Of a stretch of DNA of 64,000 bases, positions 29,650 to 46,428 are shown piece after piece. Below the pieces are notes generated by a model. That model worked only from the letters and a program-made list of their open reading frames with translations, was not told where the DNA came from and searched no databases. Each line of letters opens with the position of its first letter. Position 1 is the first letter of the stretch. The stretch spans positions 1,426,001 through 1,490,000 of the forward strand of contig NZ_JAZDDH010000001.1 in the NCBI RefSeq assembly GCF_037081715.1, in the 5' to 3' direction. Made by a program: the position numbers and the translations under genes. Origin of the DNA: Halalkalicoccus sp. CG83. Lineage in GTDB: Archaea; Halobacteriota; Halobacteria; Halobacteriales; Halalkalicoccaceae.

Positions 29650-29684
29650 TTTTTACGGCGAGCGGTTCCCGCTCGCCGTAAAAA
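29650..29684. terminator. Perfect 15-bp hairpin, probable terminator
   Basis: TTTTTACGGCGAGCG (29650-29664), loop gttcc, then its exact reverse complement (29670-29684). It lies nine bases after the prenyl synthase stop codon. The T run on one arm and A run on the other would give a U tract to transcripts from either strand, so it could stop transcription both ways. Followed by a short A/T-rich stretch (ctaaaaaactcg). Confidence 0.6.
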
Positions 29685-44577: not shown

Positions 44578-44991
44578 TCACTCCTCGTCCTCGAACTGCA
44601 GGGCGATGCCGTTGATACAGTAGCGTTTCCCGGTCGGCTCGGGCCCGTCGTCGAACACGTGGCCGAGGTGGCCGTCACAGTCGCTGCAGACGACCTCGGT
44701 CCGCGTCATGCCGTGGCTGTGGTCCGGTCGCGTCTCCACCGCGTCGTTGTCGGCCGGGTCCCAGAAGCTCGGCCACCCGGTTCCGGAGCCGAACTTCTCG
44801 TCGGTCGTGAACAGCACCTGGCCGCAGCCGGCACAACGGAAGACGCCGTCGCCCTCGATGTCGAGTAGCTCCGAGGAGTTCCGCGGCTCGGTCCCGCACT
44901 CGCGGAGGATGAGGTACTCGTCATTAGAGAGCATCTCCTGCCACTCCTCGTTCGTTCGTGGTCGTTCCGTGGTGGACTCGTGTTCGCTCAT
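44578..44991 (-). CDS. msrB: Peptide methionine-R-sulfoxide reductase MsrB
   Basis: A 137-residue MsrB. Zinc-binding pairs CAGCG and CSDCDGHLGHVF, the GSGTGWPSFWDP substrate motif and the catalytic cysteine in KRYCINGIALQF are present. It reduces the R-epimer of methionine sulfoxide and complements MsrA just downstream. The start at 44991 (MSEHEST) avoids three extra residues. Confidence 0.96.
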   Translation of the reverse strand: MSEHESTTERPRTNEEWQEMLSNDEYLILRECGTEPRNSSELLDIEGDGVFRCAGCGQVLFTTDEKFGSGTGWPSFWDPADNDAVETRPDHSHGMTRTEVVCSDCDGHLGHVFDDGPEPTGKRYCINGIALQFEDEE

Positions 44992-45000
44992 ACCGACCAT

Positions 45001-45414
45001 AACGGGACGAAGCTATTTCAACTCCCGCGTGGGTGGCGATCGGTGTGGCTCGTCGATCCGGAGGGAAATCCGGAGATCCTCCGACGCAACTGAGCCGCCT
45101 GAAACGGGCGTATCGGCGAGACTCGGGTCTATGAGCGATTCCGGCTACTGCTCGTTGCTGACCGCGAACGAGCGAAGCGAGGCAGGTTTTTTGTCGCCGG
45201 AAATCGAAGATTTCCGGCTGCTAACCAGAACGCTCCGCGTTCTGGTGATGCGGTCAGAGCCTTACTCTGACTGCCTGCCGGACGCAGTCCGGCAATGGAG
45301 GAGATTTTTGCGCCGAGGGGTTCGCGCGAAGCGCGAACCCGAGGTCGACGGAAATCCGAAGATTTCTGGGATGCGAAGACAGCAGAGCTGTCTTCTATCA
45401 CGTAAAAAGGTCCG
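45001..45414. repeat. Intergenic array of seven short perfect hairpins
   Basis: A 414-base gap between two minus-strand genes. Seven different inverted repeats follow one another at 45196-45218 (10-bp stem, loop gaa), 45224-45246 (10 bp, tcc), 45253-45271 (7 bp, cctta), 45276-45294 (8 bp, gca), 45318-45340 (10 bp, gaa), 45351-45366 (6 bp, cgaa) and 45375-45395 (9 bp, aga). Stem sequences differ from one another. The array ends in gtaaaaagg next to the stop codon of the gene at 45415. A long plus-strand frame runs through it but is an effect of composition. Confidence 0.85.
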
Positions 45415-45897
45415 TTAGAAGTGTTCATGCCAGCGCTCGGTGCCCGCGAGGAGGTCCTTGATCGCCGTACACTGTGCCTCGGCGGTCCGCTCGCCGAGTT
45501 CGTTCTCCCGGTCGGCAACGCAGGCCTTCCAGGAGCCGACCGACGCCCAGTACTCGAGCGCCTCGCGACGACCCATCCCCTCGGGGAGGTCGCCCTCCGA
45601 ACCGATCTCCTCGTCGACGACGTCCGTGAGACGTTCGTCCGGCACCTCCGGAAGCTGGGTCTCGCCGAACGTGGTGGTCTCGAGCGCCTTCTCGCGGTAG
45701 ACCGCGGAGCCGCCCTCCTCGAGCGCGATCACGAAGGCAGGTAGCTCCGGGCTCGCCTCGACGTCCGCGTGCTGATCACCCCCCTCGGCCTCTTGGGGAA
45801 ACGAGAACTCCTCGACCTTCGTTGCGAGCACGACGCCACGGCCGTCGGCCGTCGCGACGACGTCTCCCGTCTCGTACGGTGTCGCCGTCCGTGACAT
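45415..45897 (-). CDS. Acidic protein of unknown function, paralog A
   Basis: A 160-residue acidic protein. Layout: a small N-terminal strand-rich part (YETGDVVATADGRGVVLATKVEEFSFP), a middle ending PAFVIALEEGGSAVYREKALETTTF, and a C-terminal helical motif with SWKACVADRENELGERTAEAQCTAIKDLLAGTERW. About half the residues match the next gene upstream (45952-46428), with cysteines and tryptophans in the C-terminal motif conserved. Function unknown; no signal peptide. The 3' end abuts the hairpin array. Confidence 0.8.
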   Translation of the reverse strand: MSRTATPYETGDVVATADGRGVVLATKVEEFSFPQEAEGGDQHADVEASPELPAFVIALEEGGSAVYREKALETTTFGETQLPEVPDERLTDVVDEEIGSEGDLPEGMGRREALEYWASVGSWKACVADRENELGERTAEAQCTAIKDLLAGTERWHEHF

Positions 45898-45951: not shown

Positions 45952-46428
45952 TCAGAATCGGTTTCGCCAGCGCTCGGTTCGCAGAACCTCGTCCTTCATC
46001 GCCGAGCAGTGTTGTTTCGCGCGCTCCTCGCCGAACTCGTCGGTCATGTCCTCGACACAGTCCTCCCAGGAGCCGCCGATCCCCTCCCAGTACTCGAGGA
46101 CGCTCTCACGGTCCCAGCCCTCCGGCAGTGAGTCGAGGCCGTCCACCTCCTCGTTCACGACGCTCGCGAGACGCTTGCCCTCGACGTCGGCCGTGTCGTC
46201 CTCGTCCTCGAAGCTGGTAGTCTCGAGCGCCGAGGCGCGGTAGGGTGCCGAACCTACGCTCTCGAGGCCGACCACGTAGGCGGGCTGGTCGGAGGTGGCC
46301 GATACCTGTTCGTACTCGTCCTCACCGCCCTCCAGAGGGAAGTAGAACCCTTCGGTGAGGACGTCGGCGACGACGCCGCGACCGTCCGGAGTCGCTACCA
46401 CGTCACCTTCCTCGTACCGGGTCGCCAT
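45952..46428 (-). CDS. Acidic protein of unknown function, paralog B
   Basis: A 158-residue protein homologous to its downstream neighbour: YEEGDVVATPDGRGVVADVL..., PAYVVGLESVGSAPYRASALETTSF, LPEGWDRESVLEYWEGIGGSW, CVEDMTDEFGEERAKQHCSAMKDEVLRTERW. The start at 46428 is set by alignment with the paralog. Tandem duplication is clear. I do not recognise a named domain. Confidence 0.8.
   Translation of the reverse strand: MATRYEEGDVVATPDGRGVVADVLTEGFYFPLEGGEDEYEQVSATSDQPAYVVGLESVGSAPYRASALETTSFEDEDDTADVEGKRLASVVNEEVDGLDSLPEGWDRESVLEYWEGIGGSWEDCVEDMTDEFGEERAKQHCSAMKDEVLRTERWRNRF

Follow-up and report, generated by a model that had tools for sequence, protein, structure and literature searches.

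A hairpin array in Halalkalicoccus that is very probably a terminator repeat interrupted by miniature double-hairpin units

Related repeats in haloarchaea and bacteria

The SMR-A repeats of Haloquadratum walsbyi (HqIRS42, HqIRS43 and HqIRS55) are approximately 110 bp long, contain inverted repeats, cause no duplications and are found in IS605-type elements; their mobilisation is enigmatic (PMC3119063). Haloquadratum also carries PATEs, palindromic elements with IS605-like ends that lack inverted terminal repeats, generate no duplications and include very short mobilisable forms of 52 bp (PMC3119063). The REP, BIME and REPIN sequences of bacteria, which are associated with TnpAREP (RAYT), are short extragenic palindromes that are dispersed, paired in inverse orientation and often arranged in tandem, their stems show compensatory changes, and in one REP type the stems are perfect apart from 3-nt interruptions (PMC3733652, PMC8266576). 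In the open-access literature we found no further work on such haloarchaeal repeats beyond the Haloquadratum SMR paper, and any earlier report of them would be limited to the SMR repeats of a single species. Two adjacent hairpins also form the small mobile unit of the mitochondrial double-hairpin elements, which are organellar, have no known sequence relation to the repeats described here and are alike in form only.

The window analyzed here is a stretch of 64,000 nucleotides from Halalkalicoccus sp. CG83. It contains an array of seven hairpins at 45196-45395, which very probably represents a genus-wide terminator repeat, located at the 3' end of a minus-strand gene (45415-45897) and broken up by three double-hairpin (DH) units of a miniature mobile kind. 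A DH unit is 47-60 bp long and consists of two near-perfect hairpins with short loops, separated by a linker of 4-6 bases, its halves being approximately inverted copies of each other. The nearest described kinds, with the likeness judged by description, are the Haloquadratum SMR-A repeats and the bacterial REP/BIME.

The DH units share with SMR-A a haloarchaeal host, freedom from a transposase and many copies. SMR-A repeats have prominent inverted terminal repeats; those of the DH units are imperfect (unit 1 starts with TCGCCGGAA and its reverse complement has TCACCAGAA; the 60-bp type has TGGTTCGAGAGA and TCGTTCGAAAGA). SMR-A repeats prefer IS605-type elements and PATEs, near the ends of which they are inserted, and DH units are likewise enriched at tnpB loci (9/30 loci versus 9/400 three-kb bins). 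The DH units are only half as long (the three in the window measure 47, 56 and 57 bp and those at tnpB sites 54-60 bp, versus ~110 bp) and are class-wide, occurring in nearly all haloarchaeal genera rather than in one species. The main text on SMR-A describes no internal double hairpins, the two kinds being compared here by description. With REP/BIME/REPIN the DH units have in common that they are short, extragenic, dispersed palindromes in inverse-orientation pairs, often in tandem and with compensatory stem changes, and they resemble the REP type with perfect stems. They differ in their archaeal host and in having no GTAG tag at the foot of the hairpin, where the 5' side reads ..TGTC and the other strand CATC. 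Like PATEs, DH units are palindromic, very short and generally without duplications, but they have imperfect inverted terminal repeats and interrupt IS605-type elements. No target duplication is seen at the unit-1 type or the 60-bp type, while 5-6 base repeats flank the ACCAGAACGC/ACGAATCGC type, so that DH families may differ in mechanism.

Composition of the array

All seven inverted repeats reported by the first-pass annotation were found at their positions, with the stems and loops described, and its view that chance would not yield such an array was borne out. As DNA, the 291 bases of 45125-45415 fold with -82.4 kcal/mol, compared to -50.3 +/- 3.5 for 200 dinucleotide shuffles, none of which was as good (z -9.2); the minus strand folded as RNA gives a z of -7.0. 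A strict DH census of 1.2 Mb of the strain's own chromosome (C1) found 10 strict adjacent hairpin pairs, versus 0, 0, 2, 1 and 0 in five third-order Markov simulations. Clusters of at least three hairpins occur once in the window and six times in the same 1.2 Mb, one of the six being a five-hairpin cluster at a tnpB element.

A DNA search with 45125-45415 returned nine places in the strain's own genome and matches in seven of seven genomes of the genus, pieces of the array recurring at approximately 72-97% identity in its own genome and in each of the other six. A YCRGA core is common to most stems and the linkers are conserved, contrary to the initial reading of the stems as unrelated and not part of a repeat family. 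Aligned copies have a fixed architecture, GTC-hairpin-TGCTA-hairpin-GATG, in which the stems covary by compensatory changes, the linkers are kept and the loops are free; the form is thus conserved, as first proposed.

Reading along the plus strand, the left part of the terminator repeat (45160-45193) is a degenerate GC-rich inverted repeat followed by TTTTTTG; it is the insertion point of units 1 and 2 and aligns with unfilled copies in the strain's own genome (C1:915002) and in genome G004. DH unit 1 (45194-45250, 57 bp) has the form TC-hairpin-TGCTA-hairpin-GATG and comprises hairpin 1 (45196-45218; 10 bp stem, loop GAA) and hairpin 2 (45224-45246; 10 bp stem, loop TCC). It matches R1, a covariance model built from 20 units with unit 1 itself in the seed, with 84.9 bits (E 7e-24). 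Its type is dispersed in all seven genomes of the genus, where unfilled sites with exactly its ends occur. DH unit 2 (45251-45297, 47 bp; CG-hairpin-TGCC-hairpin-AATG) comprises hairpin 3 (45253-45271; 7 bp stem, loop CCTTA) and hairpin 4 (45276-45294; 8 bp stem, loop GCA) and matches R1 weakly (E 0.006). It recurs behind relatives of unit 1 at loci L069-L078, stands in a different order at L091 and is missing at the single-unit sites L081 and L083.

The middle part of the terminator repeat (45298-45344) consists of GAGGAGATTTTTGCGCCGAG, hairpin 5 (45318-45340; 10 bp stem, loop GAA) and GAGG, and runs on into the left and right parts in unfilled copies. DH unit 3 (45345-45400, 56 bp; TCGA-hairpin-GGATGC-hairpin-TATCA) comprises hairpin 6 (45349-45368; perfect core of 6 bp, or 8 counting one G-T pair, loop CGAA) and hairpin 7 (45375-45395; 9 bp stem, loop AGA). 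It separates CCCGAGG from CGTAAAAAGG, a motif that is unbroken at C1:915002 (L233); its first hairpin is common to a DH at C1:152049, and its match to R1 is weak (E 0.03). At the right end (45401-45414), the minus strand reads CGGACCTTTTTACG, a T-run directly past the stop codon of the gene at 45415-45897, in agreement with the earlier placement of the array end beside a stop codon. The base repeat, with this T-run and a hairpin, has the makeup of an intrinsic-type archaeal terminator and is predicted to act as one. Six hairpins belong to the three DH units and one (45318-45340) to the terminator repeat.

Excision in silico of 45194-45250, 45251-45297 and 45345-45400 leaves a sequence approximately 82-83% identical to unfilled copies of the repeat. 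The excised window is identical at 86/105 positions to an unfilled copy in G004 (L236), the local score rising from 33 to 63.5, and at 83/100 positions to the own-genome copy at C1:915002 (39 to 62.5).

The gene with the array at its 3' end (45415-45897, minus strand) is an open reading frame of 160 amino acids that matches no Pfam family. On the other side of the array lies msrB (44578-45000, minus strand), with a SelR domain. A homologue in G006 is 79% identical to the 160-residue product and lacks the array, but its neighbour is different and its gene end thus cannot serve as an unfilled site; among the genomes of the genus no strictly orthologous unfilled site was found for the window. The gene is adjacent to a paralogue (45955-46428, approximately 49% identical, likewise without a Pfam family); the pair lies downstream of a PfkB-type kinase and is present in only four of seven genomes of the genus.

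Filled and unfilled sites in terminator repeats and tnpB loci

The unfilled site TTTTTGGAGGAGATTTTTG has 30 matches in the seven Halalkalicoccus genomes when one mismatch is allowed, and its backward control has none. One locus has TTTTTGGAGGAGATTTTTGC unbroken; at others TTTTTG is followed by the unit, from TC to GATG, and then by GAGGAGATTTTTGC. In another family, the unfilled site predicted from filled ones, CTTTTGGTCGAGCTTTTGC, has 36 matches in seven of seven genomes of a genus taken as Halolamina, with a control of 0. The Halalkalicoccus terminator repeat has a convergent frame ending within 45 nt at 20 of its 34 copies.

The terminator repeat itself may duplicate together with gene ends. 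At L069, L242, L254 and L260 (G004 and G006), the 3' end of the preceding gene recurs as a further copy flanking the repeat (64/71, 36/41, 31/38 and 29/30 identical, with far lower values at other loci). At L245 (G003:C187, near 1554), the hairpin of a terminator repeat contains a DH of the CGAGAG/CGAAAG type; inserts therefore also enter the loops of other hairpins.

Insertion is not restricted to terminators, and tnpB 3' ends harbour many DH units across the class. Filled and unfilled homologues were taken from a PF07282 search of the genus. L169 and L177 are identical at 466 of 471 aligned positions, save an exact 57-bp double hairpin, and further pairs differ by exact inserts of 57, 55, 54, 60 and 60 bp. 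Several sequence families therefore share one form. One Halalkalicoccus tnpB 3' end lacks a 57-bp unit that is present at the same point in three other haloarchaeal genomes. The tnpB element at C1:780689 of the strain's own genome (L167, G000:C1:779189-782386) carries a DH unit before the gene and, after it, two more of 60 bp in opposite orientation, three in all.

From these filled and unfilled sites we infer that the DH units are mobile. Some of the unfilled sites could be precise losses rather than gains; insertion is favoured because the surroundings of the filled sites are unrelated. The units in the window probably persist as near-neutral passengers, tolerated for their position outside genes and next to a terminator. 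In tandem or nested, DH units build arrays of up to 13 hairpins, with ten at L073. At L091:285-666 (G003:C291) the 13 hairpins occupy 380 bases, the longest array seen, and several unit types stand in mixed order.

Pairing, transfer and taxonomic range

The 64 distinct cores of 51 nt contain 1280 pairs, of which 1250 are Watson-Crick, 18 G-T, 9 A-C and 3 other; the Watson-Crick percentage is somewhat inflated, since cores were chosen for at least 8/10 pairs per stem. Stem covariation is 0.318 versus 0.127 in shuffles, and the 20 units show 40 doubly changed cells versus 11, although the copies share ancestry and the P-value of the test hence overstates the case. The 3-base loops are GNA or its complement TNC in 76/128 cases, compared to 16/115 for other hairpins of the chromosome, and their orientations are balanced (GAA 19, TTC 18, GGA 17, TCC 18). 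In DNA, GNA triloops with a closing C-G pair have unusual stability. Covariation as Watson-Crick pairs, together with GNA loops and their complements in equal numbers, favours hairpins that are kept at the DNA level, with pairing on either strand.

Since dispersed DH repeats, inserted here three times, supply six of the seven hairpins, the array is neither one multi-part terminator nor a landing strip for proteins, and neither a single structured RNA nor an in-place product of template switching, all of which had initially been proposed. Of the multi-part terminator there survives a terminator-like repeat, composed of the T-runs and one hairpin and ending at the stop codon. That all hairpins jointly stop transcription from both sides appears improbable. 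T-runs lie at 45187-45192, 45307-45311 and, on the minus strand, 45403-45407, and in Haloferax volcanii T stretches as well as a hairpin act as terminators (PMC7237163). Yet the 30 genus copies of the repeat lack the six DH hairpins, which have no T-runs of their own and also occur within tnpB loci. Strong covariation, and the many units in the tnpB 3' region, where omegaRNA is produced in Halobacterium (PMC12558985), would suit a structured regulatory RNA, or part of the TnpB omegaRNA, kept by compensatory change. We consider this very improbable: the units are exactly missing from close tnpB homologues and have copies away from tnpB, wobble pairs are scarce (G-T only twice as frequent as A-C) and loops are equally often sense or complement. 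An Rfam search of the region returned no family, only a chance match to SraB (E 0.23, 19 bits where the gathering score is 130). The unfilled sites, once found, led us to drop a covarying RNA gene as a candidate. Covarying hairpin arrays in haloarchaeal genomes need not be RNA genes or terminators.

The enrichment at tnpB loci, along with the 52-bp terminal-only PATEs of Haloquadratum, which may be mobilised (PMC3119063), would also fit IS605-type remnants in which the two hairpins are the left and right ends and the core has been lost. Such an origin is unlikely, as in the examined tnpB elements it is the 3' region that the units interrupt, and close homologues lack them, which makes them guests rather than element ends; the inverted terminal repeats, imperfect in DH units and described as lacking in PATEs, also speak against it. 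Hairpin making in place, by template switching or palindrome correction and with no mobile unit, would account for perfect stems and freely varying, orientation-symmetric loops, both of which fit hairpin-templated repair. It cannot explain how one unit recurs with identical ends at sites that are unrelated and in more than one family, and as an origin of the hairpins it is scarcely credible; hairpin copying may still act on existing units and keep their stems perfect.

If the DH units are mobile, as we prefer, they may move as single-stranded DNA hairpins in a peel-and-paste reaction resembling that of IS200/IS605 or REP, with the enzyme supplied in trans. We regard a single-strand mechanism with an enzyme in trans as a serious candidate, at slightly less than even odds. 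The commonest DH type nearly always follows ..TG, ends in GATG, has a single orientation relative to the site and leaves no clear target duplication. In this fixed orientation behind a TG-ended target, in the target-like GATG end and in the usual absence of a duplication, insertion recalls IS200/IS605 and REP reactions by analogy; the left end, only two bases from the hairpin, speaks against the likeness. A further difference from REP/BIME concerns the Y1 (TnpAREP) gene. Y1 transposase (PF01797) has no match in the strain's own genome (G000), G003, G004 or G006, and strict DH units lie near none of the nine Y1 loci of the genus. A Y1 transposase was rejected as resident partner, having no hit in the own genome and counts that do not parallel those of R1 in the genus.

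R1 matched 7/7 Halalkalicoccus genomes and, across Halobacteria, 245 of 292 genomes in 75 of 77 genera, although at class level the weakest of these may be double hairpins arisen by chance. Of the genomes drawn across the phylum, 27 of the 33 belonging to the order had a match, compared to 6 of the remaining 164, all of them weak (best E 1.6e-5), the 33/164 split being our own tally. A degenerate DNA pattern found 37 stretches among 84,980 GTDB species, 35 in haloarchaea-named records and 2 in MAG contigs taken as G003 (Halalkalicoccus). Phage records and viral contigs gave no match, strict DH units were not found in PL47, and one fragment matched among plasmid records.

With relatives scattered through nearly all haloarchaeal genera, the DH units have the appearance of a class of miniature mobile DNA that is widespread and largely undescribed. 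It is a tentative and rather doubtful extension that they constitute a class-wide family of elements without a transposase, existing as single-stranded DNA hairpins and mobilised by an enzyme yet to be connected with them. Under this view, each would enter behind a TG-ended target in one fixed orientation, and hairpin-templated repair would account for stems that stay perfect with GNA/TNC loops that flip. If mobile, they would rank with the smallest mobile DNAs and represent, in haloarchaea, an abundant equivalent of bacterial REP/BIME. The abundance of filled and unfilled sites makes it possible to test mobility, the choice of target and the enzyme in culturable, genetically tractable hosts.

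Elsewhere in the window, the minus strand of 49278-49325 matches R1 weakly (E 0.005) within an ABC-transporter-like open reading frame, probably by chance. A perfect 16-bp stem with a TTC loop at 29650-29684 (TTTTTACGGCGAGCGG-TTC-CCGCTCGCCGTAAAAA) resembles a bidirectional terminator.
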